64,000 nt of DNA from Ulota crispa (taxonomy: Eukaryota; Streptophyta; Bryopsida; Orthotrichales; Orthotrichaceae): positions 2,420,501 to 2,484,500 of the forward strand of contig OY987244.1 of NCBI GenBank assembly GCA_963920765.1, read 5' to 3'. Position numbers and translations under genes: made by a program. The first letter of the stretch is position 1; the number at the start of each line of letters is the position of its first letter. The notes under the pieces were generated by a model. The model did no database searches and was not told the origin of the DNA. It worked only from the letters and a program-made list of their open reading frames with translations. Positions 3,403 through 54,891 of the stretch are shown here, piece by piece.

Positions 3403-3644
3403 CCCTTGAGCGCCCTAGGACCTCAAAATGAGGCGCTTAGAAATGAAAAAGTTCTTGCTTGACTTGTTATAATCTTTCTATTAGTATGGTCAAACCATTT
3501 GTCCCTTTCCTTATACTTTGGAGCTTGCCTCACCTACCATTGAGTACGGTTAGATTTTGTGAATCTTGTTTATGATGACAATTTGTTTGGATTGAGTGTG
3601 AGTGGGTCTAGATTTCAATGAATATGGACTGTGCGCTCATGGGG
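3403..3644. mobile_element. piggyBac-like MITE, CCCCTGAGCGCCC subfamily (copy B-a)
   Basis: This 242-bp element starts CCCTTGAGCGCCC and ends GTGCGCTCATGGGG. It is flanked by TTAA at 3399-3402 and TTAA at 3645-3648. A TTAA duplication plus TIRs opening with CCC define piggyBac-type elements. It has exactly the length of copy B-c (19279-19520), which has the same kind of ends. No transposase is encoded, so it would have to be mobilised from elsewhere. Confidence 0.75.
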
Positions 3645-3759
3645 TTAAGTTGAATGAAAGTCAAATCTTGGAAGCAAGGCCTTCAAGTTCTATACATGAA
3701 GTCATGAACTTTTCATGTAAATCTATTGCAGCCAAACCATTGCATTTATGCATGTTTGC

Positions 3760-4694
3760 CATCATCATTAAATGATCTTCAAATAAATATGAAATTTATC
3801 CTTCTTTTTCTTTCTGAAACTCATAAATATGGTGCAATGTGATGGATTTAGCTAATCAAATTCCCTATCTAGATACCGAAGGTTGGATTTAAGACGTTGA
3901 ATTGATAATTGCATGTGCTATTAGCCTCTTGAATATTCACTGAAAGGGGCTTCCCGGGGAATCCCAAATGGTCAAATTTAAGAATACTTTCACTCTACCA
4001 CGCAAACAAGCCCAACTTATCAAAATATATCTTTTATTGAATGACAAATAAGAACCTGAAAATCCTATCTTTAGAAACAAACTGAAAAGACATACTGTGA
4101 AAGCACAAGAAATTTTGGACTTGAACATTGGCTGATTTAGACATATCTCATTGAATGATAGTGAATTTTTCAAAAAATATGAGGGCTCTTTCAAACCAAA
4201 CATGAGCAAGGAAAATTTGACCAAGGGACATCACACAAATTGAACACCCAACTTGTGACCCAAATTTCAACAATAAATTTTGCAAAAAACTATTTATATA
4301 TATATATATATATAAAATTTCTAAATCCACTCCATTGCACCATGTAGAGGAATTTTATAAAGAGAAGAAGAGAAAATTTTATAAATATTGAATTTTGAAA
4401 AGAGTTAATTGCTAAAAGCTAGCTTGTTGAAATATTGTGTGCATGTGTATGTAACTTGTGTCCCATAACTTTTTCCACTTCTCCCTTTCTTACTTACTTT
4501 CTTTGTCCACTCTCTTTCTTCTTTCTTTTATTTGGCCTAACTTTCATAATATTGAATATATATAATCTTGAAATAAAGATATTTACCATCATCATAAAAT
4601 GATCATCCAACAAACATGAAACTTTCCCTTCTTTTCTTCTTTTCTTTATGGAACTTCTTAACACTATGGACAATGTGGTTAATTTAGCAAATCC
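3760..4694. repeat. Two direct copies of a ~110-bp dispersed repeat
   Basis: The stretch at about 3760-3865 (CCATCATCATTAAATGATC, then a pyrimidine tract, then GGATTTAGCTAATC) recurs at about 4586-4694 (CCATCATCATAAAATGATC ... GTTAATTTAGCAAATCC). A third copy lies reversed at about 37240-37335. This points to an old dispersed repeat whose full limits I could not set. Between the two copies lies ordinary AT-rich DNA. Confidence 0.5.
4295..4313. repeat. (TA)n microsatellite
   Basis: An uninterrupted run of TA dinucleotides in AT-rich intergenic DNA. Confidence 0.9.
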
Positions 4695-5253
4695 TTATTT
4701 TAATGTATACTAGTGGACTCGTGCACCCGTAATTCCGGCGGAAGGCTATCTTGCAAGAAAGTTTAAGCAGATTGTTTTCTCTTGCGACCACCTTTATCCC
4801 CGTGTATTCCCCATCCCCGAGGTCGACCATAACCGCCATTCAATCTTCTTGGAGCACATAAACCTAATTACCCAACTAATTGAATCAAGACTATTATAGA
4901 AATAAGATATGTATATACTAGTTGATAACGGCAACCCACGGAACGACTCCCTAACCATAACTATCTATCCTATGTTCTGTTATTGAGAGTAAAAGATATA
5001 CATTTTTTGTGTGAAGTGGGACATATGAGTGAACCGCCCCTAATTACACCAAGGGATGCATCAGCTCCAGTTATCACAACAACCGTTTGATGTCTTTGAA
5101 AGACGATGGAAAACGAAGAACTGTGACAGGGTGCCTGAAAGGTCTCATAAAGGGCCCCATATGGCATATGCTGATATTTACAGTTGCGTTCCCTTTATAC
5201 AGGGCCCGGGATTATTTGGGCGCAACAAGGTCTTAAACTGCAGGATGAGATAA

Positions 5254-6158
5254 CCCCTGAGCGCCCAGGCCATTTTCATCAAAATTAGGGTTTTTGGAGA
5301 CCAACAACTTTGATGCATCGTATCTCAATCAATTTGATGATTCACAAAAAGTGACCATTGAAAATAGTGGAACATCTACTTAAAAAATGGCTTGCAAATT
5401 TTGGGGACAATTGACAGCGGGAGATGGGAGATTATAACATTTGATCAAACAATATGTGATGCAAAATCTCATTTTTTGGTAGGTAGTTGCTATTTGATGA
5501 TTTTTACAAAATTCTATAAGCCCTTGATTCATTTAAAATTTTGTGAGCAGCAAGATTAGATGTGAATGCACACACTTGTAAATTATTGAAGATTGCCCTT
5601 CTTTTTATGTCAAGTTTTAGGGCTTCAAATTGCTATTGCATAGAAAACAATGATCAGTACAGCCGGTGACAGTTTCCATAATAAGGGTCTAGAACATGCT
5701 TGAACCCTTGCCAACAACTTTCCCGCTACCACAAAGCACACACAAGGAAGCTTGCAAGGGATAATGACTAGTTACTTGCTTGCAGCATGTAAAGTGCTGT
5801 TTGCCACCATGCCCCATATGGTATTTCACCCAATTAAATCTCTTGCATCACTTCACTAGAAGAAAAAGCTGTCCTAAACGAATGGATCACGACAATTGAA
5901 AATATCCTAAATGACTATACAATGACTCAATTACAGTCGTTTAGGACATTGTAGTCGTTGTGAACTAGCCGTTTATTGCATGATTTCTTCTAGTGCTTAT
6001 ACAACATTTGACTTTCCTTGACATTGCTCTATTGGCATGAACAACTTGAATACCTTCATAAATGTAGTTTATAGCAAGATCAAAAAATTAAATCCGGTTC
6101 CTCAAATAAGCTCTTGAAATCCCCAAAGATAGTATATTGTCTCTAGGGCGCTCAGGGG
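5254..6158. mobile_element. piggyBac-like element, CCCCTGAGCGCCC subfamily (copy B-b), hosting a CACTA MITE
   Basis: Ends are CCCCTGAGCGCCC and GGGCGCTCAGGGG, a perfect 13-bp TIR. The flanks are ATAA on both sides (5250-5253 and 6159-6162), a one-base variant of the TTAA target. It is 905 bp, or about 760 bp without the CACTA-type insertion at 5854-5998. Its left end and interior match element B-h (48666-49673) in the opposite orientation: the tract reading CAGGCCATTTTCATCAAAAT here is close to the reverse complement of the tract near 49640-49660 there. No transposase frame is seen. Confidence 0.8.
5854..5995. mobile_element. CACTA-type (EnSpm) MITE nested in B-b
   Basis: The left end CACTAGAAGAAA is mirrored by TTTCTTCTAGTG at 5984-5995. 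It is flanked by a 3-bp duplication, CTT at 5851-5853 and CTT at 5996-5998. CACTA termini with a 3-bp duplication are the hallmark of the CACTA superfamily. At 142 bp it is non-autonomous. Further sub-terminal repeats, such as CCTAAACGA and CGTTTAGGA, are inside. Lying inside the piggyBac-like element, it is the younger insertion. Confidence 0.85.
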
Positions 6159-6676
6159 ATAAGGAATCCTCAGTCCACAGCCTGCATCAAGCTTGCCTAA
6201 CAACAATTACTAAGCTTTTTTGCATGGCCTCAATTAACTCAGGGGGCACATCGGCTCCTCTAATCCAACGCACACTCGTAGCAAGAAATAAAAATGGAGT
6301 TTTTGTTAGACTTTTGTCAACTTTTTATGACAAGATCTCTATTTTATGACTTATAAAGTAGTCATCATTTCTCTGACTACAATATATAAAGCAATTTGAA
6401 GGACTCTTGAGGACCGCTAAAACTATTGGGTGTGGGCTAGGTTTTGTTGTCCCCTTTAAGATCATGTCCCATTTGCAAGATGCATTGGACCAGGTTTGCA
6501 GTTCTCAAACTAGGACCCACAATGAGAGTGAAGTTACAAAGTCGATATACCTGCTAGATAGAGGATGCTTTTAACTAATAGCGCCAACACCTTGCAACAT
6601 TAAACGAGTGATTTCATGATATTGGCAACGGATAGGAGGCCTAAAAAACAAAACTTTACTTGCTAATTTGTACTTT

Positions 6677-6998
6677 TGGAAAATTTCATGGATATCCATA
6701 CAGTTTGCAATATTTACATGGATACCCCTTTTTTTCTAGAAATATCACAAATATCCTTAGACCAAAATAATTGGCGTTTGTTTTCATTGTGCATGCCACT
6801 TCCTTGCTTCCTTTGTATGCACACGTTACAAGAAAGAAGCTCTGTGCGCATAAAGGGAGAAGGAAGTGACATGCATAAAAAAACAAATGCTTCAATTTTT
6901 TGGTCTAAGTGGATAAACGGGTATTTGTGATATTTCTGAAAAAGCAGGGATATCTATGAAAACACTCCAAACTTCAGGACTATCCATGAAATTTTCCC
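6677..6998. mobile_element. Mutator-like foldback MITE (copy A1)
   Basis: This 322-bp foldback begins TGGAAAATTTCATGG and ends CCATGAAATTTTCCC. It is flanked by near-identical 9-bp duplications (TTGTACTTT at 6668-6676, TTGTAGTTT at 6999-7007). The arms carry the family landmarks: a GGATA...CCC motif, AAATATCACAAATATCCTTA, and a central GTGCATGCCACTTCC with its complement. Nine-base duplications point to the Mutator superfamily. Other members are at 35206, 49953, 55009 and 55466. Confidence 0.85.
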
Positions 6999-13595: not shown

Positions 13596-13597
13596 CA

Positions 13598-16440: not shown

Positions 16441-16502
16441 TACTGTCCAATTAAAGCAAAATCTTGCCCAAAGTAACAACCCTGGTTTGGGGGAATGTGG
16501 GA

Positions 16503-19500
16503 ATGCAGGTCCAGGCATTCAACCAGCTCTTAAAATCAAAACCAGCCATGCAGCAATACAACAGCCAAAGCAATAGTATGGCTTACGACGCTCACCGGTA
16601 CAACTTCAACGGGAGCAACACGAGCTGCAGCGAAGTGACACCTAACATGATGCTGAACTTCGGTGGAGTCATGGATCACCGGCTGGATCACCGGCTGGAT
16701 CCATCAGCCAGCTTCCATGGCTTGGAGGAGTTGCAACCCTCCAATGGCATGGATGCTCCCTCGGGCACCACCTTCACCGAAGACTTGAACTCCACCGCTG
16801 CTTACGAGGTTGGGGAGCCGGATCATGGGTGCCTGCTTCAGGAAATGCTCCAGCAGCATCCACACTCCCAGCAAGCTGCGCATTCGCAGGTACATAATAT
16901 CTCTTCAACAAAAGCTTACAAAATAATTGCAAATGGAAACATTGCTGTACTAGCTATAATGTCTAGGTTTTTGAGCTAAGTGCAATAATTAGGTTAGAAA
17001 ACCAGAAATGATAGAGCCATGCTCATACAATGAGTATACTGAACTTAACATTCTCTAGAGGGTTTTGGTGCCTACTATGCTAAAATTATGGTTGTCACAT
17101 TGAACCAACTATTAGTCATCCTATTGAGCTCTTGCTTGTAGTCTATTCACGATTGATTTCCCAAAATAGTTAATTTGTTTCTTACCTTTTGAAGTCAAAA
17201 CCCCTAAAACGTTGGCCAGAAATAAATCTAATAAATGTGTGGACTATGCGATTTGAATTGGGGGGGAATTGAAACTGTGCCGATTTCATGATAATCCACT
17301 ATTTCAATGAACATGAGATAAGAAGAAAAGTTTACTCGCCAAATTTATTAAAACAGCAAACTTTCAACAATCCTGCACTTTTGAAGATGATTATCTGGAA
17401 GTATAAACCAGTTATCCAGCGTTAGAACGGAGCACATTTGAATGTCACTATCTCGACACCTATGAAACAGGCAGATCTCACGAACATGACTAGAATTTTA
17501 AGATGCCAAGGCTTTGGGTTTTTGAAAACTTGGCGTTTTAGGTTTAATGCTGGTCTCCAGGGGGTTTTGATTAGAACCATGTTCATCAAAGTTTTGAAAT
17601 TTGAGTGAAATTTGGAGCAGTTTCCGATGCCGGACTGCGCCATGAGAAGAAAAACCACTCCTTTGCCGGAACGGTGTGTTTCAAGGCATTTAAAAACCTT
17701 GACATCCAAGCAAATCTCTAAGGTTTTCTTACAACACACCGATGTCTTGGGATTTAAGTTTTCTGACAAATGCAGGTCTTGAGACACTGCCATTTTGACG
17801 GAGACGATGATGTACGGCATGTCAGGTTCCAGGGGCGGCAAGTCACGGCGACTGGGAAGACAGTCTCCACGTGCTGCAAGAGATGGTGCACCTTCAACAA
17901 CAACAACAACAGCACCAGATTTACAATCAACCGCAAATGGAGCCACCATTGACCAACCCTAATTTCAGCTCTCACCAAGGCTCAGCACAATTCAACAACG
18001 GCAATGCTAAGTTCCCAGGCGCCGAGTCCGATCTACTGAACCTCCTCCAGTTTCCTAGGGTTTCCACACCAAGCTTCAACTACCCCGGCGTCCGAGGAAA
18101 GAGTCCTCTCTACTCCACTTCTTCGATGTCCGATCCCATGAACACAGGCTGCTACGATCCAGTTCTCAATCACCACTTCCAAAACTCCTCCTCCTCACAG
18201 CGATACCTGCAGAAACCTCCCGTCGACGCTTCGAGGCTGCCAGTTGCGCCCATTCTTCTTGTGGATCTCGACCAGGAGAGAGACGACGTAAGTGTGAAGA
18301 CGTTCGGAGGCAAGCGGGAGCATCACGGCGCAGGAAAAGGCGAGCCGCGCGGCGTTAATCACTTCGCCACAGAGCGGCAGCGGCGAGAGTTCTTAAATGA
18401 GAAGTACCATACTCTGCGAGCTCTCGTCCCAAACCCTACAAAGGTCTCAAATGCCGCTACACCTAAACCCTAAACTTGGCAAATTACTCGCTGAAAGTTT
18501 ACTGTCTCATCTAATCTGGCGATGGCTCTGTCTCGTCTAATCTGGCCGTGCCCTGGCGGCTTGGCGTTGGATGGCAGGCGGACAGGGCGTCCATCGTGGC
18601 GGACGCAATTGAGTACGTGAAAGAGTTGAAAAGAACAGTGCAAGAGCTACAAGTGGTGGTGGAAGAGAAGAGGAGAGCGGCGGGGGATGCGAGCAGCGTC
18701 AAGAGACGGCGATCATCGACAGTCGACGGAGAGGCTTACAGCAATACCTGCAGCGCTGCTCCGGGGGGCGACGTCAATGGACATCTGGTGACGCAGACAA
18801 GCAACGAGGGCGCTTCGCCAGACGGGACGCAGCGCTGGCGGAGCGCGTGGCTGCAACGGACGTCGCAGAACGGGGCGCACGTGGACGTGCGCATCGTGCA
18901 CGACGAGGTGACGATCAAAGTGAACCAGCGGCGGAGCAAGAGCTGCTTGCTGTTGTGCGTGGTGGCGGTGCTGCAAGATTTGCACTTGGATCTGGTGCAC
19001 GCCAGTGGCGCCACTGTGGGCGAGCAGGATGTGTTCCTCTTCAACACCAAGGTACGTCCCGTCGTCGTCGTCGTGTTTTCCAAGCCCTGGCCAAATCTGT
19101 GCAAATCCTCTCGTTCCAAGTTGCCAGACGATGGAAAACACTACAACGTGCTGGTGTGTGCATGGTTCACCCAGCCACGAATGCGGCGCGCGGGGTCACC
19201 GGAAAAGCTCGACCTCGTGTTTCTCTGTTTAGGGATTCTTTCTTGTGCTGGTGCTCAGTTTCCTTTGTTTTCCCTAAACCCCTGAGCGCCCCACAGGCCA
19301 GAATGTGGCCTCTCCATATTTGATGGTTTGTTGTCTTTGACCGTTATAATCTTTTGATTCATGCAACAAAAAACTTACCAAATTTTTTATACATATGCAA
19401 AGCCTAAGCCTTGTGCAATATGTACAGTTAACGCTTCTAGATGTTGTTTTTGAACTTGTGGTGTCAAATTGTTTGCAATGAGGTATAACATTGCACGAGT

Positions 19501-20742
19501 TTGGGCTGGGCGCTCAGGGGTTAACCCCTAAAGGGCCCTTGGCTCTAGAGCTACGGTACCAAATATAGTCGCAACCAATATTCAAAAGATTGAATCAGTT
19601 AGAAATTAAGTGTTACAACCATACATATTGAAGGGTTATATGATGGCGGGTGCATAATTTTTTTGGAAAGCCCTCAAAGTAGCTCAAATATGTCTCATCA
19701 TATGGCCATACATATTGAAGGGTTATATGATGGTGGGTGCATAATTTTTTTGGAAAGCCCTCAAAGTAGCTCAAATATGTCTCATCATATGGCCATACAT
19801 ACAGCCGCAAAGGGCTATCATGACGTTCAAGGGTTAATCTCTTGGGCACTTCTAAACCCCAATCCCTAAAAACCCTAATTCTAGAATACTAAACCCTAAT
19901 CCCATTTCAAGGTTATTTGAGATATCCGGGGTTGTGTGGGGTTAAAATTCATTGGAATCCTAATCTCTTGCGTTGGGTCTATAGTGATGCTTGGATAAGG
20001 TTAACCTTTGCAAGAGAAACGTTTGGATAGGGTCAAGGTCTTACTTTTTATTTTTGTATTTGGGCTTAGTTGAATGAAGTGTTTGTTTAAGGTTAATGCT
20101 TGGATACAATCAACGTTTTTTTCTTGCCTTAAGTATTTAACCTTATCCAAGCGCCATTGTATTAGTTATAGTCTCGTCGAGTTTGTTTGTTTGTTTTTGT
20201 TGATTGAGGAAAAACAAATAAGGGTTTCAAAGTAGGAAATTTTTATCACCAAAGGTATGCGTGATTTGGCACAAATTTTATCATAATCGTGAAACAAATC
20301 TTGTTGAGGAAGTAAGGTTTTATATCATTAGGTAAGATGCTTGCAAATTTTATGAGCAATTTTCCAGAAAATTGAACAATAAAATGAGGTCCTTAGAAGC
20401 GGAAGTTTCGAAGCTATTTAGTACTTGACAAGCAAAAGGGTTTTCCATGGTATAGTTTGCATATTAAACAGTTTTTTTTTCTTAAATTTGAAACCCCCTA
20501 ACACAACTGTTTAAATGTAGCTGTTGTAAAATCTTCTCCGAATTCCCATATATATATAGATATACAATAATGGCAACTCCTCCCAATAGCTTAAATGCCT
20601 GAAAATGCTTAGAAATTGAGAAATTCGTTGAGCCCTGTTGTTTGTTTGGTGAGAAATGCAGGTTTTGGAGGGATCGTCCACATTTCCAGGCTACATTGCT
20701 GTGAAGCTGCTGGACGCTCTTGATCGCCACCTTGTAAATTGA
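16503..20742 (+). CDS. Clade II bHLH transcription factor (EAT1/TIP2, bHLH10/89/91-like)
   Basis: Exons: 16503 (or spliced in at 16509)-16889, about 17826-18443, 18578-19051 and 20662-20742 (stop). Seen: a Gln/His-rich N-terminal half with a DLLNLLQFPR motif, as in Arabidopsis bHLH10, and a Q-run at about 17880. The basic/helix-1 block NHFATERQRREFLNEKY ends in PNPTK, the family's conserved intron site, and helix 2 follows as DRASIVADAIEYVKELKRTV. The C-terminal ACT-like region contains HVDVRIVHDEVTIKV and FLFNTK, then VLEGSS in the last exon. Known of the family: these nuclear E-box binders form dimers and control tapetum or sporangium nursing-cell development, a role conserved between angiosperm anthers and moss sporangia. 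Uncertain: the true start (an upstream exon at 14219 joins in phase) and the acceptor at 17826, chosen because it keeps the frame. A 12-bp tandem duplication (DHRLDHRLD) lies at about 16673-16699. Two piggyBac-like MITEs fill the last intron. Confidence 0.86.
19279..19520. mobile_element. piggyBac-like MITE (copy B-c) in the last bHLH intron
   Basis: Starts CCCCTGAGCGCCC and ends GGGCGCTCAGGGG. It is 242 bp, the same length as copy B-a. The right flank is TTAA (19521-19524) and the left is TAAA, one base off. It shares the right-hand TTAA with the adjoining element B-o, so the two sit head to tail on one target site. Confidence 0.78.
19525..19833. mobile_element. piggyBac-like MITE (copy B-o) in the last bHLH intron
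   Basis: The left end CCCCTAAAGGGCCCTTGG resembles the ends of copy B-n (53564-54283). The right end is GACGTTCAAGGG. TTAA lies on both sides (19521-19524, 19834-19837). It is 309 bp, including an 87-bp tandem duplication. The right end is diverged, so the limit is less certain than the left. Confidence 0.65.
19620..19793. repeat. 87-bp tandem duplication inside B-o
   Basis: Two copies (19620-19706 and 19707-19793) differ by a single C/T change that I can see (GGCGGGTG against GGTGGGTG). A third start (CATACATA) follows at 19794. Near-identity means a recent slippage or unequal exchange within the element. Confidence 0.9.
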
Positions 20743-21674: not shown

Positions 21675-21677
21675 TAA

Positions 21678-21748
21678 CCCCTCAATGCCTCAGGGGCAAA
21701 AAAAACGCCCCATTTTAGTGTGTTTTTGAAAGTTGGGGCGTCAAGGGG
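21678..21748. mobile_element. Minimal piggyBac-like MITE (copy B-e)
   Basis: Only 71 bp. It starts CCCCTCAATGCC and ends GGGGCGTCAAGGGG, with TTAA on each side (21674-21677, 21749-21752). It is essentially two terminal repeats around an A-rich spacer, and the shortest member in the window. Confidence 0.7.
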
Positions 21749-22565: not shown

Positions 22566-22639
22566 TATCCCGTTTACACAACAAGAAGAAAGAAAAAAAT
22601 CAATGCTATAGAAGGTGATATAAAGGAGGTATTAGAACT

Positions 22640-24416: not shown

Positions 24417-27400
24417 ATGGCGTCGAGCTACAGCAGCCTACTGTGGCCATTAGAAAAGTTGTGGCCATCTGGTACTTTCAATTTGCAGAAATGTGTGCAC
24501 GGGAGTGTGTCTCAAAGGCTGAGCATCGTGTGCCATAGTCGTGGGAAGGGAGGAACTGAACATGAAAGGACGAAATTGAACAATGCTTCCTTGCAAATGC
24601 GATTGCTGCTGGAAAGTGAGGGTTTGTTGGCAACGGAAGCAGCTTATTCTTTAGTGAACACTATGAACTCTGAAGGTCGTGCTATTCTTATTTCTGCCTT
24701 GTTTCCGGGTAAGTAGTACTGTTATTTTCTCTACAAAATAGTACAAGCTTTTTTTATCTGATCGTTTGAAGAAATTTTGAGTCGAAATCTCAGGGATCCA
24801 CGTACTGTTCATGAACATTGGTTGAAATTTGGTTTTGTTTAGGCTTTGAAATGCTCCACGCTGAGGCTTGAATATTGTGCAGTATGAAATTCTGACCCTC
24901 GATCTTATGAGCAGCTACCCAGCAAGCAATGGATTACTTTGAGCAGGCAGATGCAAATGCAGATGGGATTGTGGACGCTGCAGAGTTTGCTACTTTTGTT
25001 GAAGCGCAAGCTCATTTCTTTGAAGATTCAAACAAGCCGTTGACAAGTGATCAACTCTATCATTTGGGGACCCGTGCTGCTATTGGTAAGTTGCTTGCTT
25101 ATTAGAGGTGGTAAAGTAAGTGTAACCAAAACAAATACTATACTTTAAAAATGAGCACCATGTACCACTTCTATACATTGAAAAGTCGTAATTATTTGAG
25201 GTACTTGTGTTAGTTTATGGTTGGATGCCGGTTTTGGGCATGCTTACTTTGTAGTTTACGCTTGTGTTTGCATACATTACAATGTCAAGTTTTAGTTGGG
25301 AGAGGATTACAACTCATAGCCCTCTACTTTAACCCCTAAATGCCCAAGGCATCCAATTTGGGTGTTTCCAAAACTTTGAAGGTGCATGAAATTTTATCAA
25401 ATCACTATTTTTAGTATCTTCTTTTTAGTACAAGTTTGTTTTGAAGTCTATTTACCACATCAAAAATCTGATTTTCAAAATGAATGTTGATAATTTTTCT
25501 ACTCAAGATTTTTTACAAGGGTGTCCCCTGCAATCTTGAGTTTTCTAGTGTTGGAAGATCTTGAAAATGGGCCTCAAATACACTAGAGCTTGGAGAGAAT
25601 TCCACATTAGAAATCCATTAAAAAAATATAGGAGTAGATTTTAAAAACCGTAAATTTATTAAAGTTAGACATGTAATGACCTTAAACCTCATATTTTTTT
25701 GGTGACCAACTTTTAGATTTGACATGTAAAATGAGGATTGGAAGACTTCAAGTCACTTTTGCAGTTTTAACACCTTGAGGTTCAAACATTATAATCTTTC
25801 AAACTATAAGTGATATTGTTGTGTTTTCTTTTTCTATGTAATCTCTAACATGTTCAGTTTAAATTTGTACCGTTACAATATAAAAAAACTTGACGAAATT
25901 TATGAAAAGTTTGGTTGATTGTTCAGTTTCTTGAAAATGCCAAGAAATTCAGAAAGGCCTTGGGCATTTAGGGGTTAATCTCTTCATTATGAGCCCGTAG
26001 ATCAACTAAATAATCCAGATATGGTATTTCTCGGTTCAGAAAGACGACTTGACTTTGTGTTTTATAGCTTTCTTGAGTTTCCTACCTCCTGATGGTTATC
26101 AAGTCCCTTACCTCATGTTATATGCTTTACTGATATCTTTCTTTTTTTTAAGTATCAAATGCTCAGGGATTTAAGAGTTTATCCACAGCAGAATATTCAT
26201 TGCTGTTTAAGCAGTACACCGCTAGCTAGTGTGCTCAACCAACCCTTTTCTAGGGTACCGATACTCCAAATTCCCTAGAAATTTTTACTATTCGGAAGGA
26301 AATATCTCAACATTGTTAGAGTGGTTTCTTGAAACAGTTGTGCAACTGGAGATTTGTTTTTGTACCCGCTATTTATGTTTATCACTGAATTTTCAATCTT
26401 TGGATGGTACGTTGCAGGAATGATCGGCTTTGGGTTCACAGGTATTGCAATTATCTGCATCTTGTTCAATAAAATCTCCCTTCGTGCAATATCATCATCT
26501 TTGGTAATGCAATACATTTGAGAGTTAATTTATCTTAAACCCATCGGCAAACTCTAAGCATTGTTCTCCGTGCGACTTGTGCAGACAATGCGATCATGAT
26601 TCTTGCTGGGGATGTGATTCAAAACACTATTGGATTGACACTCGGCCTTTCCACACTTATGGTGCGATTTTTATGTCACATACCATGTTGATCATGTCGA
26701 TCTGCTTCAACCCTACGCACTTGTTATAACATTCTTTACAGAAATTTGCTATCAATAACGCCAAGTTGAAGTTTCAAGGAACTATATGACTCTCTCATTG
26801 GGCTGGTTAGAAGTTTATAATCCATGACCTATATGTTTCATGTGAGCCTTTGATCAGCCAAAAAGTACATATTTTGGATTTCAAGATTCAGTAAAAATAA
26901 CCTGACATTATGTTTAACAGTCCTCTGGAGCCTCTCGTTTCTTGAAGGTTATCTTGTCCGTAGAGAATTTATTGCATTCTTCTGATGACGGGATTTTGAA
27001 AACTTACATTCGATGTCTGGATCATGCTGTCCAAATGCACCTTGCTAACTTTGTGTTGGCATTGGGATAGTCTGCAGGCTTAGGAAATGCAATTGCAGAC
27101 TTGATAGGAACAGCATTCCGGGGTTACATAGAACGTATAACTGGAAAATTCATGCCAGAAGTGAAAATTACCTCTCGCCAGCTCGAGTCCAAGGAGGCCT
27201 GGTGGGCTGAAACTGTGGGCGCATCTGCAGGTACTTTCTCTTGGCATTTATCCCTTGTTTGAATGGAGTTTAGTTCTTCCCTTAAAGGACCATGACGCAC
27301 AAATCGGGCATGTTACTAAGCGATTTAAATGAGAGGTTCACCTTAGAGCACTACTCTCCTAATTGCAACACAAAGTCCACTATAGTTTAAATCCTGAATC

Positions 27401-28215
27401 TAAGGTTGTCATTTTTTTATATCCTCATACCGTAAATCTCATAAGTATTACGGAGTACTATTATGTGGCACTATTATGTACACCGTGGTGATTTTCTTGT
27501 TAGGCTTTACATCATATTTTGGACTAAGAAATGCACTGTTCTTCATTAATTCTAGTGATTTAATCTTTGATCCCATCTGAATCATACTCTTCATAGTATG
27601 ACCGATTGAATTGGTTACTGTTTCTCCACAAATGATTTACCCTTTTTACACCCAAACCCCTTTTTGATCTTATATTCTTGTACAATTATTTGATTTACCT
27701 CAATTTCATCAAATTGGTCACTAAGAAAAACCTGTCTTTAAGGATTCAACCACTACCATGGATGAGTGAGGAATTATTTGGACAAAACATCACTCTGTTG
27801 ATCATCTAGAACATGAATTATAGAGCGCTCAGGGGTTAAATTGAAAATTGCATTTCCTGATGCAGGTGTCACCTTGGGTTGCCTAATGGGATTGGCTCCA
27901 CTACTAATTCTCCACCAGAAACACGACCCAGCAGCACCTGCCACTTCTGTGATTGCTGCTGCTGCAGGAAAGGGTCTCCTGAGAGGCAATCCTTCACAAT
28001 CTCAAGACACAGTTATACTCTGTTCACAACCTGCAGGTGTTGGGAATAACGGTGAGAATACGTTTGCCACCATATCCGCAGTTGCAGCTCCTTGCAAACA
28101 TCCTGGTATGGCTCAAAATGTTGGAGGTTCAGTGTTCATTCTGATGGTAACTACTGCCATGGCTGTGAAGCGAGTTCAAATGTTCATGAAGAGCCGGAGA
28201 AAGTTGGATCAATAG
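24417..28215 (+). CDS. TMEM65-domain membrane protein with an EF-hand
   Basis: Six exons give 357 residues: 24417-24708, 24915-25085, 26418-26441 (a 24-base microexon), 26585-26661, 27071-27230 and 27866-28215; every junction keeps frame. Residues 1-45 are Ser/basic and poor in acids (MASSYSSLL...), resembling an organelle transit peptide. Residues 110-121 form a full EF-hand loop, D-A-N-A-D-G-I-V-D-A-A-E. The TMEM65 core follows at about 155-255: GMIGFGFTDNAIMILAGD, then LGNAIADLIGT, then GVTLGCLMGLAPLLIL. A low-complexity linker and a further hydrophobic segment (SVFILMVTTAMAV) end in a basic tail. Human TMEM65 is a mitochondrial inner-membrane protein tied to sodium-dependent calcium efflux. 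I infer a calcium-responsive organelle membrane protein; plastid and mitochondrion are both possible. The start is the first ATG in good context (GCTATGGCG). Introns 2 and 5 carry piggyBac-like sequence. Confidence 0.88.
25333..25974. mobile_element. piggyBac-like element (copy B-f) in TMEM65 intron 2
   Basis: Ends CCCCTAAATGCCCAAGG and CCTTGGGCATTTAGGGG form a perfect 17-bp TIR. TTAA lies on both sides (25329-25332, 25975-25978). At 642 bp it is the cleanest example of the family in the window. It shares its termini with copy B-i (50130-51032). No transposase frame. Confidence 0.88.
27821..27839. mobile_element. Lone right end of a piggyBac-like MITE beside a splice acceptor
   Basis: AGAGCGCTCAGGGG followed by TTAA (27836-27839) matches the right terminus of the CCCCTGAGCG subfamily. 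I could not find a matching left end in the intron, so it is a truncated or decayed copy (B-g). It lies about 25 bases before the acceptor of the last TMEM65 exon, so the pyrimidine tract of that acceptor is immediately next to transposon DNA. Confidence 0.55.
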
Positions 28216-32872: not shown

Positions 32873-35707
32873 ATGGCGGACGTCCAGCATGACGAGCCCG
32901 CGCCGGAGCTCAAGGAGGATCTCGGCGGAGAGGTACACTCGCTCTCGTTTCTTTCCAACACCCCCTCGGATTTCGCAATTTATAGCTCGTCGTAGTGTTT
33001 TAGTGTACAATTTCTGCTTCAGGAAAGAGATTTTAGTATGCGAGTGAGAGTGCACAGCTGGTTTTAACTCTGGAAAGAGTCAGTAAGATCTAATGAGCTT
33101 TTTTAGGTTTTTAATGAGTTCTAATCGTTTTTAGGGTTTTGAATGAGTTCTAATCGTTTTTAGGGTTTGCACAGATAGGAGCGTTTGATCCTACGAAGAA
33201 AAAGAAGAAGAAAAAAGTTCGTATGGTCGAAGATGAGGAACCTGTGCCCGTGAAGGAAGTGCCGCCTGCTGTTGAAGGAGGTGTGGTGGATTCCACTTTC
33301 CTTGGTCTCAAGAAGAAGAAAAAGAAGAAACATGTAAGCTCTGGGGAATCGTTTGTATTGATTTGAAATCTTTGAAGAGCTAAATTGTTTGGTTTCGAAA
33401 TTTCGACTTTTTGCACTTGCTTTATTTGAGAGTTTTGCTGATGGTGGTAATTTGTCGTGTTTAGGTCGAAGGTGATTATTTGGAGGAAGAGAATGGCGAA
33501 GCTGAAGATGAAGCTAATGGTTAGTTCTGGTACACTTGTTAAATTTTGTGTTTGTTTGTGTAGATCGTTTTTTGTGTTTTGGAGTATGTGTGTTATTTTA
33601 TTGTAGTGCAAAGGTTGATATTTTGGGATTTTTACAGCTGATGCTGAACCTGAAGTTGAGGAAGATGAACCTGCTGAAGGTATCGAATTGGAGACCGCTT
33701 ATCCGTGGGAAGGGTCGGACCGAGACTATCAGTATGAGGAGGTAAAGACCTAAGGGTATAGTTTTAGGGTCTTGATACTGCCACCCCCCTCTTTTACATC
33801 ATTGTTCAATTTTTAGTGGTTTTTAGGGACATTTATATAAAAAAATGGAATTAAACATGTATCAAACGAAGTGATTTTTTTAGGTGTTTTTCAAAATGAT
33901 AAATTGCAATCAAAATTTTTGATAAGAAAAGATAATAGAGTGTTGTCTTTTCTTATCAAATTTTTTGATTGCAGTTTATCATTTTGGAAAACACCAACAA
34001 AAAATCACTTGGTTTGATATATATTTAATTCTAAATTTATAAAAAAATATCCCTAAAACCATTAAAATTTGAACAATGATGTAAAAGAGGGGGTGGCAGT
34101 ATCAAAAAGGAGGTGGCAGTATCAAGACCCTAGTTTTATAGTTCTTGAAAAATTCCATATTTTCTGCTCTTGGTTTTGTCATTTCTTTTAGAGCAGGCTT
34201 CCTTCAAATCGCTAATACAAATGGTAATGTCTGTGGGGATCTGTGCACAGCTACTAGGGCGAGTATTTAATATTCTGAGAGAAAACAATCCAGAGCTGTC
34301 GGCAGAAAGGAGGCGTACTATTATGAGACCTCCGCAGGTGCTTCGAGAAGGAACGAAGAAGACTGTCTTTGTCAACTTCATGGACCTTTGCAAGACGTAA
34401 TTTTTTTTCTCACTGTTTTCTTCAACATTTTCTCACTAAAACCTCGTTTGCCTGCTTTATAATCGTTCTATCTAACAATCTGTCAAGACATGTGAGGAGC
34501 TATGCCAATTTGATACTTGAGTTTTTTTGAATTATACTAATCGATATGCTCAATTGATACTTTGTGTTGGTGTGTAGAATGCATCGGCAACCCGAGCACG
34601 TTATGACTTTCTTGTTGGCCGAGTTGGGAACAAGTGGATCGTTGGATGGGCAGCAGCGTCTGGTTGTGAAAGGTCGATTTGCTCCTAAGGTGTTCGAGGG
34701 TATTCTGAGGCGTTATGTCAGTAAGTCTCTTCACCTTTGGCTACTTGAGAGTTTTCGTCTCCAAATGTTGATGAAACTCATTTACTTTAGTGTTGGAGCT
34801 GATGCTGATAACGTTTCCTCAAGTTTTTGGTTGGTGTGTCTGTTGAATAGTTAATGATTTTTTTTGCTCATTAAACGTGGACTGGAATACTGCGGTGCAG
34901 ATGAATACGTTATGTGCAATGGTTGCAAGAGTCCGGACACTATTCTTTCCAAGGAGAACCGGTTGTTCTTTCTTCGCTGTGAGCAGGTGAGTAACCTTTT
35001 ACTGTACACCTTTTCTCATAAATTGAAATTATCTTATATAATTTATCCCGTACATCCCTAAAGCTGAAAAGCAGAATTTTTAAGTTAGTATTTGATTAAA
35101 ATAACCCTCAAAACAATATTTCTATCATTCACAAAGGGCATGAACTTTTCTTTTACTTGGTCATTTTGTTACCTTCCTTAAACCTTTCTAAACCCTTTAT
35201 TTTAAGGGAAAATTTCATGGATACCCCTGAAGTTTGCCGTATTTTCATAGATACCCCTGCTTTTTCAGAAAATTCACAAATACCCTTGGACCAAAATTTT
35301 CAAGTGTTTGTTTTGTTGTGCACATCACTTCCTTCTCCCTTTGTGCGCACACTATTACTTTTTTGTTGTGCGTGTGCACAAAGGAAGAAAGGAAAAGGCT
35401 TGCACAACAAAACAAACACCTGAAAATATTGATCCAAGGGTATTTGTGAAATTTCTGAAAAAGCAGGGGTATCTATGAAAATGTGGCAAGCTTCAGGGGT
35501 ATCCATGAAATTTTCCCTTATTTTAACTGCATGGAATTGACTGTTTCGGCACTTAAGGTTTGATATTCACAAGTATGTTGCTTTTGGATGTCTTGTAATT
35601 ACATTTTTAATGGAATTTTTTGTCGACAGTGTGGATGCTCGCGATCAGTTGCTCCTATCAAAGCTGGATTCGTTGCCAGGGTCGGACGCCGTAAGACAAC
35701 GACGTAG
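32873..35707 (+). CDS. EIF2B-beta (eIF2beta): Translation initiation factor eIF2 subunit beta
   Basis: Eight exons give 276 residues, the usual plant length: 32873-32932, 33175-33333, 33465-33519, 33638-33741, 34251-34396, 34578-34720, 34901-34986 and 35630-35707. All junctions are in phase. Seen: two lysine blocks (residues 28-34 and 66-72) that in this family bind eIF5 and the catalytic eIF2B subunit, then an acidic stretch, then [30 protein letters not shown] and [12 protein letters not shown]2-C2 zinc ribbon (Cys 228, 231, 249, 252) lies near the end, which reads VGRRKTTT. The protein is part of the cytosolic eIF2 trimer that carries initiator Met-tRNA to the 40S subunit. Start chosen: ATG in a strong context (ACCATGGCG). 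Intron 4 carries a hAT-like MITE and intron 7 a Mutator-like MITE. Confidence 0.97.
33113..33170 (+). repeat. 29-bp tandem duplication ending at the intron 1 acceptor of eIF2-beta
   Basis: AATGAGTTCTAATCGTTTTT followed by AGGGTTT occurs twice in tandem (33113-33141 and 33142-33170), immediately before ACAG at 33171-33174. Each copy brings a candidate branch region (TCTAAT), a pyrimidine tract and a TTAG, so the true acceptor is preceded by a duplicated splice context. Confidence 0.85.
33767..34130. mobile_element. hAT-like foldback MITE in eIF2-beta intron 4
   Basis: The TIRs GGGTCTTGATACTGCC and GGCAGTATCAAGACCC match perfectly over 16 bp. An 8-bp duplication, TAGTTTTA, lies at 33759-33766 and 34131-34138; 8 bp is typical of hAT elements. 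The 364-bp body is self-complementary throughout (TTTTACATCATTGTTCAA and its complement). The right end has an extra partial copy of its GGAGGTGGCAGTATCA tail. Confidence 0.87.
35206..35517. mobile_element. Mutator-like foldback MITE (copy A2) in eIF2-beta intron 7
   Basis: This 312-bp foldback starts GGGAAAATTTCATGGATACC and ends in the complement. A perfect 9-bp duplication, TTATTTTAA, lies at 35197-35205 and 35518-35526. The arms are nearly identical and the duplication is intact, so it is a fairly recent insertion. It lies in the last intron, about 110 bp from the final exon. Confidence 0.92.
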
Positions 35708-48665: not shown

Positions 48666-49673
48666 CCCCTGAACGCCCCAGAGGACCAAAATGGTCCTCA
48701 CATGATTTCACAACATGATTTCACATGCCTGTTTGAGGTATTGGATTTAATTTTTTTTACCTTGTTATAAATTACAATTATCAAGGTATTTAAGTGGTCT
48801 ATGCAAGTGGAGTAATGGCAAGGTCAGTCAAATGTTATACAAGTGCCTCAAGAGTTTTAAGTGGGTGAAACACCATACGGGCCGTGGTGGCAAGCAACGT
48901 CTTACAAGCTACAATTGATCAATACTCATATCAAGCTACATTGCATGTGCTTTGTGGTAGCAAGAAATTAACCACCAAGGGTTCAAGCATGTTGCAACCC
49001 TCACTAATTGTGCTAGTCATTGTTTTTTTGTGCAATAGCAAATTGAAGCCCTAAAACTTAACCTACAAAGAAGTAAAATCTTTAGTAAATTGCAAGTGTG
49101 TGCATTCACATCAAATCTTGGTACTCAAACAATTTGAGATAAATTAGGGGCTTGTGGAATTTTGTAAAAATCATTAAATAGCAACTACTTGCCAAAAATG
49201 AGATTGTGCCATCACATGTTGTTTGATCATCAAATGTTACAATCTCCCATCTCCCATGGTCAATTGTTTCCAAAATTTGCAATTTGTTTTCTAAGTAGGT
49301 GTTTCCATTATTTTGAATGGTTGCTTTTTGTGGGTCAACTAATTAACTATAAACTACTCACCTCCCAAATGTACTTTATTGGTACATGTTGTTGTTCAAA
49401 GCCTTTCAACAATATATAGGGTACGTACATTTGAGGAGGTGGGCGGTTTTAAAGACCTATGGCCTTTCCACTTCAAAATTTCATAACTAATTTCACAAAG
49501 CTCCAAAAAATATGAGAAAACTTGGATAGATGTCAATTCCTCTTGTCCTTTAAGAGAAAACTATTGAAAAGTATTTCAAGAAGTTTCACCTCCCGGATAG
49601 ACGGTTTACGAGCACACTACCTTAGGTCTCCAAAAACCCTGATTTTGGTGAAAATGACCTGGGCGCTCAGGAG
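48666..49673. mobile_element. piggyBac-like element (copy B-h), hosting MITE C3
   Basis: The left end is CCCCTGAACGCCCC after TTAA (48662-48665). The right end is GGGCGCTCAGGAG before TTAG. Its interior and right end match copy B-b (5254-6158) in reverse orientation: GGTGAAACACCATACGGGCC here answers CCCCATATGGTATTTCACCC there. It is 1008 bp, or about 730 bp without the C3 insertion. It starts 415 bp after the ARA1 stop codon. Confidence 0.78.
49345..49622. mobile_element. TA-flanked Stowaway/mariner-like MITE (copy C3), left end decayed
   Basis: CACCTCCCAAATG, then CATTTGAGGAGGTGGGCGGT, then TTTCATAACTAATTTC follow copies C1 and C2 closely. The right end CACACTACCT is followed by TA. The left TIR is not recognisable, so the start is approximate. 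It lies within piggyBac-like copy B-h. Confidence 0.7.
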
Positions 49674-49952
49674 TTAGTCCTATAGATCTCGAAAACCCTT
49701 TTCACACTTATCGGAGCCTATTTTCTCAAGGCCCCACCAGGTAAGAAGTCGTTAAATCTGGATGACGCTTACACGCTGGATCCACATCCGACAAGTCTTG
49801 ATCCCCCGATCCCATGATCCCACTCTTCTACCAAGGTCTCCCAACGAATAAACATTCCAACTACTGTAGGTATGGTACACTCAAACCTTCATAGGTCTAG
49901 TCAATCTTCATAATCAGTCAAGCCTCCACCCCTAGGAGTGTATATCCATAAG

Positions 49953-51177
49953 GGAGAATTTCATGGATACCCCTGAAGTTTGCCAAATTTACATAGATAC
50001 CCCTGGTTTTCAGAAATTACCCAAATACCCTTAGTCCACAATTTTAGGGGTTTCTTATATTGTGTATGTCACTTCTTTCTCCCTTGTGTGCATGTTGTTT
50101 TTTTTGTTCTATTGCACTCCTTGTTTTAACCCCTATATGCCCAAGGGACCAATTTTTGGTTTCCAAAAAATTTCAAGAAATTTTGAAACCTTGTTGAAAA
50201 CACAAACTTTATTGTTTTTAGGTTTTTTTTATTTTTATGGAAAGGTTGCGCGCTAAAGTTAGCTTCACCATTCAAATTCAACCTCCTCCATATCTTGTTC
50301 CAATTATTTTTGGTGGAAGGTTAACTACAAGCATACATTTTGTGTCATGAATAGTGTTGTGAATAGTCACGGAACCTATGACAAGTTGTCACATTGAAAG
50401 ATGGGCATCAAGTTGAGAAAAAGGTGAAGATTTCCTTTAGGCTCTCCCTTGAGCAGTAAGGGCCTTCTTTATTGAAATTTTGACATCTAACAAAATCTAA
50501 AAGTGCTTTTGGACTAATTTCACTAGGAGTATTCTTGTTATGAAAATTAGGATTCATTCATCAAATTTTCTTTCATTCAAATTGATTTTAGGTCAATAAT
50601 TGGAGCTAAAAAACATCTTTGCATTAGGTGTTTGCACTTTGACAGTTGCTTTGCAGGCTCATTTGTGAAACTATGGTCATGGATTTGGACGGGGAGCCAT
50701 TTGTTTTGAAATAACAACAATAAACACTAAAGCATCCTAAGTGGCTGCTTCCCAAAGTTTGTATCCAAAAGTTGCCAATTTGCATTAGAAATGTTGGACA
50801 ATTCCAAAAAAATGCAAAAAAATCTATACTTGTCATCATTCAATCACAAATATCTTAAAATCCGCATGACTATTTTGGATTATTTTTGGGGAGCGCCATC
50901 TAGAAGCTTTGAAGTTCAAGATTCAATGGTTACAATTTTGTTTTGATGTTTAATAATAATCTTACAAGAACAATTCAAAAACTTCAAAACTACCTTCCAA
51001 AAGCGAGAAATATACCCTTGGTAATTTAGGGGTTAGCCTTGGTCATGAAAGAAGTAGCATGCATAATAACACAAACGCTTGAAAATGATGTACCAAGGGT
51101 ATTTGTGTACTTTCTGAAAAACTAAGGGTAGCTATGTAAATATGGCAAACCTCTAAGGGTATCCATGAAATTCTCCC
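49953..51177. mobile_element. Mutator-like foldback MITE (copy A3) split by a piggyBac-like insertion
   Basis: Ends GGGAGAATTTCATGGATACC and its complement, with a perfect 9-bp duplication TATCCATAA at 49944-49952 and 51178-51186. It spans 1225 bp, but without the inner element B-i it is about 318 bp, the standard size of the family. The inner element is therefore younger. Confidence 0.9.
50130..51032. mobile_element. piggyBac-like element (copy B-i) nested in A3
   Basis: The left end CCCCTATATGCCCAAGGG follows TTAA (50126-50129). The right end CCCTTGGTAATTTAGGGG precedes TTAG. Termini are of the CCCCTAAATGCCCAAGG type shared with B-f. It is 903 bp with no recognisable transposase. Confidence 0.82.
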
Positions 51178-51475
51178 TATCCATAATGTGGATAATGAAT
51201 GATTTAAACTCCTACTCTATAAGTTACAACCGGAAATATTTAGGAGGTTACTATATTTTATTTTTCAATTATGTGACTAGATTGGGTGCTTCATGATATT
51301 TTTAGTTCACTGTGAGTTAGAAAAAAAAACTCAAAAATGAAGGTCTTGGATTGGAATCTTCGGCCATTATTTATTTTTACTTGAGATCTACATGCTTCAT
51401 TTCTTCATTCTTAAGAGTTGATCCCGATCCCACATGATCACATTCTCTGATAGCAAAATTTGAAAGGTTCTTTAA

Positions 51476-51846
51476 CCCGTAAACGTCTAAGACGACAACA
51501 AGTGTCCTTTCAATGCCAAATAAACACCCCGAGGGTGGAAATTTTTTTTAAAATTCAGTTTTTTTTTCTTAAAAGTGGTCAGAGATATGTGCCATATCAC
51601 TGAATGCCAAAAATAGCTGCTTTCAATGTTTCCATATTTTAAAAAACACCAATTTATAAAGAGATGTACAAGGTCCCCTGCTCCTTTTTTTGTGAGGGCA
51701 GCATACACTATTGACTTTTCCTTCTTTTGAGAAGAATATCATATCTTGTGGACACATGCTACAAGCTGTTCACTGCCCATGAATAGTGCACTCTCCTCGG
51801 TCTGAGCCCCTGGTTGTACACGGATTTAGGGTTTGTCCTTTAAGGG
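51476..51846. mobile_element. piggyBac-like MITE (copy B-l)
   Basis: TTAA at 51472-51475 and 51847-51850. The left end CCCGTAAACGTCTAAGACGA resembles the right end of copy B-k. The right end is GTCCTTTAAGGG. 371 bp. It shares its right TTAA with the start of B-j. Confidence 0.65.
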
Positions 51847-51850
51847 TTAA

Positions 51851-52621
51851 CCCCTAAAAGCCCATTGACCCTATAGGGGACAAAATGGATTTTAGGCAAG
51901 CTTTTTCTATTAGAGTTTTTGATCAATTTGTTTGAAGTTTACTTTTGAAAGATTGTTGTAAGGGCTATGCGGGAGTATATTTTTTACTAAAATCAAATTC
52001 ACTATTCAAATATTATTGGTGTTTTTACTAGAATTTATCAAAAGTAATAGTGTACTAGTTAAATTCATTTTTGTATTTGAAATTGCTAGATCTCTACTTG
52101 AACAAAAATCCAATTTGCCAGATTTTGGATGAAAGTAGCTTACATTAGTAGTTTTTTGCATGAACTTTTGTGGTTCATTCTTTCTTTCCCATTTTAGCCA
52201 ATATTTCCTTGCATGCTGGCATTATGGGTTGTGAGTCACTCTAAAGTAGACAAACCTATATCCCAACCACTCTCCAATTCCACACCCTATTTTTGAGGTG
52301 TTCACCTTCTGCTCTTGAACCCAAATTAGAGCAGTGAAAGTTGTTTGCAAAAACAAATTTTGCCACATGCTAGTTGCTGAGTTGCTATGAGACAGTTGGG
52401 ACTGGAACAATCAAGTGCCATTACAAGAACATATCCAAACAATTTCAAAGTTAGTTTAGAGTTGCTAATAGGGACCCTAGGAGCTGCACCTTTGCCCTTT
52501 AATATAGAACGATCTATAATACGTTGTTCCACAAAAATTATGTTCCATGATAGCTTGTCGAAAGGCTAGCCTTAATGACTTTTTTCTTGAATTTTCCTAG
52601 ACCTTGAAGTACCCCAAACCC
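51851..52621. mobile_element. piggyBac-like element (copy B-j), right end uncertain
   Basis: The left end CCCCTAAAAGCCC after TTAA is clear, followed by GGGGACAAAATGGATTTT, as in the B-n termini. No clean right TIR was found before the next TTAA (52622-52625), so this may be a decayed copy or part of a larger composite ending at 52986. Confidence 0.45.
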
Positions 52622-52625
52622 TTAA

Positions 52626-52986
52626 CCCTTGAACGTCAGATGGGTGGCCGTGCCTGCCCTCTACAATGGTTTATACAATGGTGTGGCAAGTGCCCACCCA
52701 TTAAATTTTTTTTTTATAAAGTTGCAAAAGTCAACAGTGCATGGTGTCCTCATGGAAATTGCAAGAAGGGCAGCTTGGGACCTAACACCGTGTTTTTGAA
52801 TCTTATCACAATTTGGGTTACCTAAAATATGAATGCATCTCTTGAGATAATTTTTTGCCTTCCATGATGGACCATGTGTTTGTTGTCACTTTTGAAAAAC
52901 ATCAAATGAAAAATGCCTTTTTTGTGAATCATATAATCTTTTTTCACAGCTAGAGGACATTTTTTGTCCTCTTAGACATTTAGGGG
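52626..52986. mobile_element. piggyBac-like MITE (copy B-k)
   Basis: The left end CCCTTGAACGTC follows TTAA. The right end GACATTTAGGGG precedes TTAA (52987-52990). It is 361 bp, close to B-l. Sub-terminal GAGGACATTTTTTGTCCTC forms a short hairpin. Confidence 0.6.
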
Positions 52987-53195
52987 TTAAACGGTTGAGT
53001 ATGGGTCTATTTACCTTAGGGCATCTCCATTGGTCTAGGCTTGCTCAAAGTTTTCTAGTTGGTTTGGCGAGGCCTTAAGACTCTCAATCTCCACCCATAC
53101 TATTTGAAAAGGTGACCTTACAATCCAACACACCCCATAAATAAGCAATTGATCACCTATCTAGGGAAGTAGAGGATAAAGCTCACTAAACTTAA

Positions 53196-54829
53196 CCCCT
53201 AAAGGAGTAGACCCGCTTTTTTAGAAACATAGCGATTTTGGGCAGGTATATGTGGTTGGAGCTTTTCATATTTTAGGCTGAAATTTTGAGAGAATGTGGG
53301 GACAAAGTTTATCTTTCATATGCACTAAATTTCATGTCGTTTGGAGTTATGAGTAAATAGTTATGGCCTAATATGTTGTTTTTTATGTTCGTCGGGCAGC
53401 TTGGGCAGATTTTTAAAAATCACTTTTTGCAAAAACAAATTTTTAAAATTGGTTGAGGAGATTTATGTGAATGTAGGAAGCTTTGAATTGTTCCATTTTG
53501 ATCCACAAGGTGAAAGCTATAAGAATTTTTAGTTTGCGGGCAGTTATGGATTCACTACTCTAACCCCTAAAGGACCGAGGGCCCTTTCGAGGGACAAATG
53601 GGATTTTGGGCATGTATCTATGGCTAAACTACTTTGCGATATTTTTTGAAACTTTTATTGAAGGTGAGGAATTCAAAGATCTACATGGGAATGTAATTCT
53701 TTCTTCATTCCAACATTTATTAAAGAAGTCAAAAATGAATAACTAAAAAACAAGGGACTATCGGGCAGCCAAAAACTTCTTTAAAAATTTCATTTTTTTC
53801 AAATAAAAATCTGAAATAGGTTCTTTAGACTAATTTAGACATGGGGAGCTTTGAATCATTCAATTTTGATAGATGAGATGAAAGTTATGAGAAATTTTCA
53901 CTTGTGGGTAGGTGTGGTTTCTCTCAAAATCACACCTACCCGCAACTAAAAATTTCTCATAACTTTCATCTCATTTATCAAAATTGAATGATTCAAAGCT
54001 CCCCATGTCTAAATTAGTCTAAAGAACCTATTTCAGATTTTTATTTGAAAAAAATGAAATTTTTAAAGAAGTTTTTGGCTGCCCGATAGTCCTTTGTTTT
54101 TCAGTTATTCATTTTTGAATTCTTCAATAAATGTTGGAATGAAGAAAGAATTACATTCCCATGTAGATCTTTGAATTCCTCACCTTCAATAAAAGTTTCA
54201 AAAAATATTGCAAAGTAGTTTAGCCATAGGTACATGCCCAAAATCCCATTTGTCCCCCAAAAGGGCCCTTGGTCCTTTAGGGGTTAAAATAAACTTTGAA
54301 GTCCTTTATTTTACTCAATTTTCATTATTTTGGAAAAAAAATAGAACCAAAGGATGTATTGTTTATTTCAACATTACCACCATTGGGATTGGCTCTTTTC
54401 ATTTCCATAATTAAATTCTTAACAATTTTGTGTTTTGAATCATTCGCTACTTCTTTTTACTTACTAATTTTTTTCTAGATGTCATACAATTCCAAATGAC
54501 TTGAAACTTTTTTGACATGTACTTTACTTAGGCGGAATAAGGAATTTAGAGAAGCACCACCCACATGGCCATTTTTCCTTAGGAATTTCACCTTCCCAAG
54601 GGTAGCTGCCCGGTTTTCACATGACGTTTTTGAATATTCAAACCATTCTAATTTCCAATCCACGTGGTGGAAAACTTTGAAATTTTTCCACATCTTTTAA
54701 AACCGTTATTCTATAGGATCCTATGGTCACATATTCATAAAATTGTTTTTGTTTTCAAATTTGGTTGATGCTCTAAAAATGGCAATTTTGGAGAGTTTTT
54801 GGTGAAAACTTTGCTTGGACCTTTAGGGG
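53196..54829. mobile_element. piggyBac-like composite (copy B-m) enclosing B-n
   Basis: The left end CCCCTAAAGGAG follows TTAA (53192-53195). The right end GGACCTTTAGGGG precedes TTAA (54830-54833). It is 1634 bp, or about 910 bp without B-n. The left part (53196-53560) is related to an arm of B-n (GATTTTGGGCAGGTAT against GATTTTGGGCATGTAT), so B-m may itself have been a foldback that received a relative. Confidence 0.6.
53564..54283. mobile_element. piggyBac-like near-perfect 720-bp palindrome (copy B-n)
   Basis: The termini are CCCCTAAAGGACCGAGGGCC and its complement. The right flank is TTAA; the left is CTAA. The two arms of about 353 bp match with few differences and meet at about 53924 with a loop of only some 14 bases (GTTTCTCTCAAAAT between CACACC-type arms). 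Few differences between the arms imply a young element or recent gene conversion. Confidence 0.88.
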
Positions 54830-54891
54830 TTAAGGTGAATAGTGCATGAATACTGGCCTGAAGAGTGGCTTGCTAGACTCGCTAAATAAGA

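Follow-up and report, generated by a model that had tools for sequence, protein, structure and literature searches.

Short non-autonomous piggyBac-type elements at TTAA targets in a moss genome, sampled in a 64-kb window

The window analyzed here, a stretch of 64,000 nucleotides (C3:2420501-2484500) in a moss assembly of 274.8 Mb and 157 contigs, contains a series of short elements with CCC-starting ends that adjoin TTAA. They raise the question of whether these elements are miniature inverted-repeat transposable elements (MITEs) of the piggyBac type and, if so, what could have moved them in such a host. piggyBac is the workhorse of animal transgenesis; to our knowledge, it is known mainly from animals and has hardly been described from land plants. 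We conclude, with a probability of roughly 93%, that the window, part of a moss nuclear chromosome, is an average-density sample of genome-wide non-autonomous piggyBac MITEs, 71 bp to ~1 kb in length, that were moved in trans by the transposases of the same genome. An earlier note on this DNA had reported such a population; its observation is confirmed and its piggyBac interpretation is supported, as the refuting conditions it named, where examined, all turned out in favor of piggyBac. The MITEs have CCCYTNANNGNCC-type inverted repeats in a duplicated 4-bp target, which is TTAA at ~85% of the counted ends and, less often, CTAA/TTAG or TTAT. piggyBac transposases are also numerous in this genome and form several deeply diverged lineages, with most copies broken and at least one situated between like ends. 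Contigs and loci are denoted below by C and L numbers, and papers are cited by PMC number.

The motif TTAACCCYTNA is found 16 times in the window, as against a mean of 0.42 and a maximum of 3 in 100 dinucleotide shuffles. Genome-wide it has 65,422 matches in 274.8 Mb, as against 3,454 for the reversed-pattern control. The density in the window (0.25 ends/kb) equals that of the genome (0.238/kb), and the window is therefore typical, not exceptional; the word "dense" in the earlier note does not hold. With no flank requirement, the end motif matches 37 times in 144 kb (the window and ten other 8-kb loci), 27 of these after TTAA, and the same motif reversed matches twice, neither time with TTAA. 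The elements are short, non-coding, and present in high copy number, with inverted repeats starting with CCC as in piggyBac. Their length classes are 71-86, 224-242, ~640, 833, and 892-950 bp, plus some longer ones. In 15 8-kb loci taken at round coordinates (120 kb), 12 two-ended elements occupy 5,967 bp (5.0%), a figure that misses decayed elements. The pairing script gave 29 pairs, including one false pair (L007 1155) and one mis-nested pair (window 53196-54283); it demanded flanks no more than one base from TTAA, so the flanks it tabulates are not independent evidence. One 955-bp family has 1,831 candidates; among the best-scored 40, the 39 copies other than the query have 90-93% identity with it, and 34 span all 955 bases, values that describe the closest copies and not the spread of the family. 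No near-identical copy is found among those scored, and we infer that this family probably arose in a past burst.

The source of the transposase should be considered next to these numbers. The window has none, as had been stated before: tblastn with two transposases gave no match in it at 1e-5. Genome-wide, the search for the piggyBac transposase domain DDE_Tnp_1_7 that the earlier note proposed found at least 120 PF13843 matches, with a lowest E value of 1.3e-73, when 116 of the 528 candidates were scored. No PF13843 match was found in 14 control genomes, a weak control with unlisted membership, one of them a cyanobacterium. In a phmmer comparison of two of the transposases with PDB, the only relatives are piggyBac (6x67/6x68, which we take to be the Trichoplusia ni protein) and piggyBat (9c0f), at E values from 5.8e-17 to 2.6e-24. 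Of 25 copies aligned, 17 retain the first three catalytic Asp residues and 15 retain all four, the others having a change; the reference of this alignment is the L031 fragment, whose own place is counted among the 25. In tblastn with the L030 and L031 transposases, copies other than those two have ~30-68% identity, and several old lineages are therefore present. Three single-frame transposase fragments, in which a cysteine-rich C-terminus could be missed because the exons are unassembled, gave only PF13843 in Pfam. An upstream coding module (around RYLFYRQIAKLLG) recurs in L013, L029, L030, L031, L034, and the overlapping L036/L040; two of its copies were scanned with Pfam and gave no match. 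No transposase relative was confirmed in IMG/VR and GTDB contigs.

The ends around the transposase genes were compared with those of the MITEs. In L029, a 5.0-kb element (263-5289) carries a transposase (2683-4053) between TTAA-flanked CCCYTCATYGCC ends of the CCCYT type, namely TTAACCCCTCATCGCC and GGCAATGAAGGGTTAA, so that the gene within like ends foreseen in the earlier note is present. In a transposase lineage comprising L030, L034, and L035, the right ends are CCCTTTAGCGACC, CCCTTTAAGGACC (flank TTGA), and TCCTTTAACGACC, respectively, and the mutual homology of L034 and L035 stops at these right ends. The end CCCTTTARAGACC of a MITE in L050 matches all three. Judging only from such end similarity, particular transposase lineages may move particular MITE subtypes.

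Several observations weigh against mobilization by these transposases. Both ends are recognized only in L029, and the left ends of L030, L034, and L035 are not recognized. None of the eight transposase loci that were read over 6-7 kb has CCCCTAAAGGACC at both ends; a right end only was assigned at L030, L034, and L035, and no enclosing pair at L031, L032, L033, and L036. MITE-type ends are located near the transposases of L032 (5737) and L036 (1074), where partners were not found. Stops occur in 110 of the 120 matched PF13843 stretches, which weighs on present activity. In blastn, the MITE interiors share nothing with the transposase loci except whole or partial MITEs inside those loci. Since there is no common interior, the MITEs are not simple deletion derivatives of the transposase copies seen, and this origin was rejected.

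Some or all of the MITEs could instead owe their transposase to another TTAA-targeting superfamily, leaving the piggyBac genes as bystanders. Kolobok and Sola3 have the same preference for TTAA, the genome-wide transposase search covered the piggyBac model, and MITE interiors unrelated to the piggyBac loci would suit such a source. Against this, L029 unites a piggyBac transposase, CCCCT and CCCTT ends, and TTAA, and the ends next to the L030-lineage transposases agree with those of MITEs. The starts themselves point both ways: CCCCT, the commonest start here, is absent from the animal piggyBac starts (CCCTT, CCCTC, CCCAT, and CACTA) in the excerpt of PMC10813416, but the start most conserved there, CCCTT, is common here as well. 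Taken together, we regard a Kolobok or Sola3 source as improbable.

Mobilization by piggyBac transposases implies a 4-bp target duplication, and the flanks were tabulated genome-wide. Among 9,597 CCCCTAAAGGACC ends (control, 3), 8,154 (85%) adjoin exact TTAA and 96.6% are within one base of it. Single-base variants number 325, 319, 186, and 286 at positions 1 to 4, respectively, and 327 flanks are of other kinds; an excess of outer-base over inner-base variants is not clear from these single ends, and only pairing separates them. The nature of the target should be noted: TTAA, being palindromic, cannot alone prove duplication, and facing variant ends were therefore paired within 1.6 kb, starting from the first 100 listed places for each variant position. 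All 100 places were used for position 4 and 99 for position 2. For position 1, 96 were used, as four on C3 lay farther along than the partner list extended; for position 3, with C3 and C4 omitted, 60 were used. Position 1 faces position 4 in 13 pairs. In 11 of these, an identical non-palindromic word stands at either end (TTAG in six, CTAA in three, and TTAT in two), and two have unequal words, both TTAT/TTAG. Position 1 facing 1 and position 4 facing 4, for which equality is impossible, give one pair each. In total, 11 of 15 pairs of first- or fourth-base variants are matched, counts that carry no formal chance expectation, and the single facing pair of second- or third-base variants is unequal (0/1). 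The matched 4-bp words indicate that the duplication is 4 bp long, as in piggyBac, and that CTAA/TTAG and TTAT truly serve as targets besides TTAA, whereas inner-base changes resemble subsequent decay. In the window, the element at 5254-6158 has ATAA on both sides.

Empty sites within the genome, another check raised in the earlier note, were resolved in three of 37 trials, all three with a single 4-bp target. When the element at 53564-54283 is removed, the outer sequence aligns unbroken to five relatives (L002, L006, L043, L044, and L047), all of which carry just one CTAA at the insertion place, where the window has CTAA on the left and TTAA on the right. The 73-bp element L044 5509-5581 has an empty site in L051 with one TTAA, and the 905-bp element L050 2626-3530 has empty sites in L050 and L030 with one TTAA. 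The 12 further trials on window elements, with 51476 in two pairings, resolved none; in other loci, two of 24 elements tried were resolved, and two more were skipped because of short flanks. Synthesis-free joining is not claimed as the cause of the unequal CTAA/TTAA at 53564, as most variant pairs are equal, though the five relatives indicate a CTAA target. MITEs of the Tourist type (PIF/Harbinger), for which the duplication would be the 3-bp TWA and the fourth base would belong to the element, could hide in these flanks, as TAA and TTA are contained in TTAA and angiosperm MITEs with TAA/TTA duplications are described in PMC10004981, but the flanks co-vary as four-base words (TTAG/TTAG, CTAA/CTAA, and TTAT/TTAT) and not as TWA, and each resolved empty site retains one four-base copy, and this origin was rejected as very improbable.

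In the piggyBac reading, the MITEs would be mobilized in trans by the piggyBac transposases of the genome, in bursts, and the end subtypes would reflect different transposase lineages. Movement would begin with a 3'-OH nick at the element end, followed by formation of a 4-nt hairpin on the flank, opening of the hairpin, and joining to a TTAA target, with the donor presumably repaired seamlessly. Nicking, hairpin formation, TTAA joining, and seamless repair are established piggyBac biochemistry (PMC7351741). For T. ni piggyBac, a model that needs asymmetric ends in vivo has been proposed (PMC7351741). The element at 53564-54283, which is symmetric and has its own duplication, contrasts with that model and is a single case here. 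On a wider scale, the odds seem to us evenly balanced that mosses have had a piggyBac radiation of their own, with deeply split lineages, an added upstream domain, and CTAA/TTAG and TTAT targets besides TTAA, mobilizing symmetric fold-back elements and MITEs of 71-86 bp that are nearly just two ends, and that piggyBac is thus a main DNA-transposon class of this genome.

The host had been taken for a plant, which stands and can be narrowed to a moss by LFY and plastid PsaB matches. The LFY N-terminal domain has a strong match on C4 (1.2e-27) and five weaker ones, taken for other SAM domains. The C4 protein matches PDB 4ude ('GINLFY PROTEIN', presumably ginkgo LFY) at 4e-21. A count by eye gives 8 differences in 734 places between PsaB on the plastid contig C157 and PDB 8htu. 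The best chains for this PsaB are 8htu, 6l35, and 7ksq (1710-1714 bits), which we take to be from Physcomitrium patens, followed by 9lut (1676 bits) and a fifth chain (1632 bits). From these sequences the host is read as a moss, probably one other than P. patens. Plastid fragments also occur within large contigs, C3 included.

In the window, the described ends are present at all 14 places where the earlier note had put an element or fragment. Its claim of two-sided elements holds in part: of the 14 starts, 11 or 12 have a partner end, and those at 27835 and 51851 are single. Seven pairs are clear. These are a 905-bp element of the CCCCTGAGCGCCC subtype with non-palindromic ATAA flanks (5254-6158), a 242-bp element flanked by TAAA and TTAA (19279-19520), a minimal 71-bp element with TTAA at either side (21678-21748), a 642-bp element with CCCCTAAATGCCCAAG at both ends (16/16) and TTAA on both flanks (25333-25974), a 903-bp element with TTAA on the left and TTAG on the right (50130-51032), an inner 720-bp fold-back element (53564-54283), and an outer element of the CCCCTAAAGG family (53196-54829) that the fold-back element interrupts. 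The left end at 53196 is paired with 54829 rather than 54283 because 53564-54283 is nested inside. The fold-back element is a palindrome with arms of 365 nt that are 96% complementary, and both arms match one arm of L006.

Right ends are weak in three elements: the 242-bp element of the CCCTTGAGCGCCC subtype at 3403-3644, of the same length class as 19279-19520, where the end is decayed or shifted by one base; the 309-bp element at 19525-19833, where the chosen end (8/16) ties with other places; and the 1008-bp element at 48666-49673, flanked by TTAA on the left and TTAG on the right, where the end is CTCC (12/16). The pairing inside 51476-52986 is ambiguous. The left end at 51476 may pair within a 371-bp element (CCCGTAAACGTC / CCCTTAAAGGAC, 51476-51846) or with 52986 (14/16) as an outer element, and in the latter case the 361-bp element at 52626-52986 (CCCTTGAACGTC / CCCCTAAATGTC, TTAA on both sides) loses its partner. 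A left end CCCCTAAAAGCCC at 51851-51866, which adjoins the preceding TTAA, and a right end CCCCTGAGCGCTC followed by TTAA at 27821-27835, for which no left end was found, are solitary. Elements lie in or adjoin the TTAA of one another in three cases. Neighbours have a single TTAA in common at 19520/19525 (at 19521-19524, to the left of 19525) and likewise at 51846/51851; the third case is L034 5350.

Other repeats are found beside these elements. A fold-back repeat family is common to window 6678-6997, 35203-35520, 49975-51153, and 55464-55780 and to L054 98-406. The piggyBac element at 50130-51032 interrupts the family's copy at 49975-51153 and thus lies between the repeat arms, and the loop is too diverged for the empty site to be read. 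Another fold-back family is located near or inside piggyBac elements (L012 1-451, L022 3512-3989, and L053 3330-3741), and its arms in L022 and L053 are rich in TACCACACCC. L053 3125-3957 was considered as a second symmetric piggyBac fold-back element and dropped, the inner palindrome being a different nested repeat. Directly to the right of the MITE cluster, a large palindrome (55002-56251; arms of 190 and 363 nt, 92% complementary) has similar reading frames on both arms, and no TTAACCC end is seen there. An inverted repeat of ~200 nt with arms 2.3 kb apart (28994-31700) is possibly a DNA transposon with long terminal inverted repeats (TIRs). Exons of a plant-type basic helix-loop-helix transcription factor, recognized by eye, occupy 16455-19285, and their end adjoins the element at 19279.

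The kind of element is known; what is unexpected is the host and the scale. A useful side result is the set of matched duplications other than TTAA. For target choice, the population is a natural large-scale record; it could also supply ends for a piggyBac tool of plant origin and help to decide whether piggyBac entered plants once or repeatedly. Among the open-licence matches listed, no report of piggyBac in bryophytes was found, and PMC10619864 was a false match on the word 'piggybacking'; a prior description is possible, as subscription papers and Repbase were outside this scope. For other plants, 1,230 PiggyBac-labelled repeats (0.00%) are given for the fern Ceratopteris (PMC6890710) and one 75-bp piggyBac match for Stipa (PMC8319324), PiggyBac is named among angiosperm MITE superfamilies (PMC10004981), and plants are among the hosts from which piggyBac is said to have been isolated (PMC10813416) or for which it is listed (PMC10794571).

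The moss elements resemble piggyBac (6x67/6x68) and piggyBat (9c0f) in DDE_Tnp_1_7 by sequence, the catalytic Asp residues, the TTAA duplication, and the C-rich ends, but differ in the moss host, the distant sequence, the length of ~5 kb, and the upstream module. They share the CCCTT start and TTAA with rare TTAG, CTAA, TAAA, and TCAA flanks with the animal piggyBac elements of PMC10813416, although CCCCT starts are commoner in the moss. Variant flanks are treated there as probable mutations, whereas in the moss many first- and fourth-base variants match on both sides and hence are real targets. The coral CMITEs (PMC2872659) are likewise MITE families attributed to piggyBac-like transposons, with tandem copies, but in an animal host. 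The angiosperm MITEs assigned to piggyBac in PMC10004981 are a plant parallel; they were grouped by internal sequence, TIR, and duplication, whereas the moss genome itself also contains piggyBac transposases.

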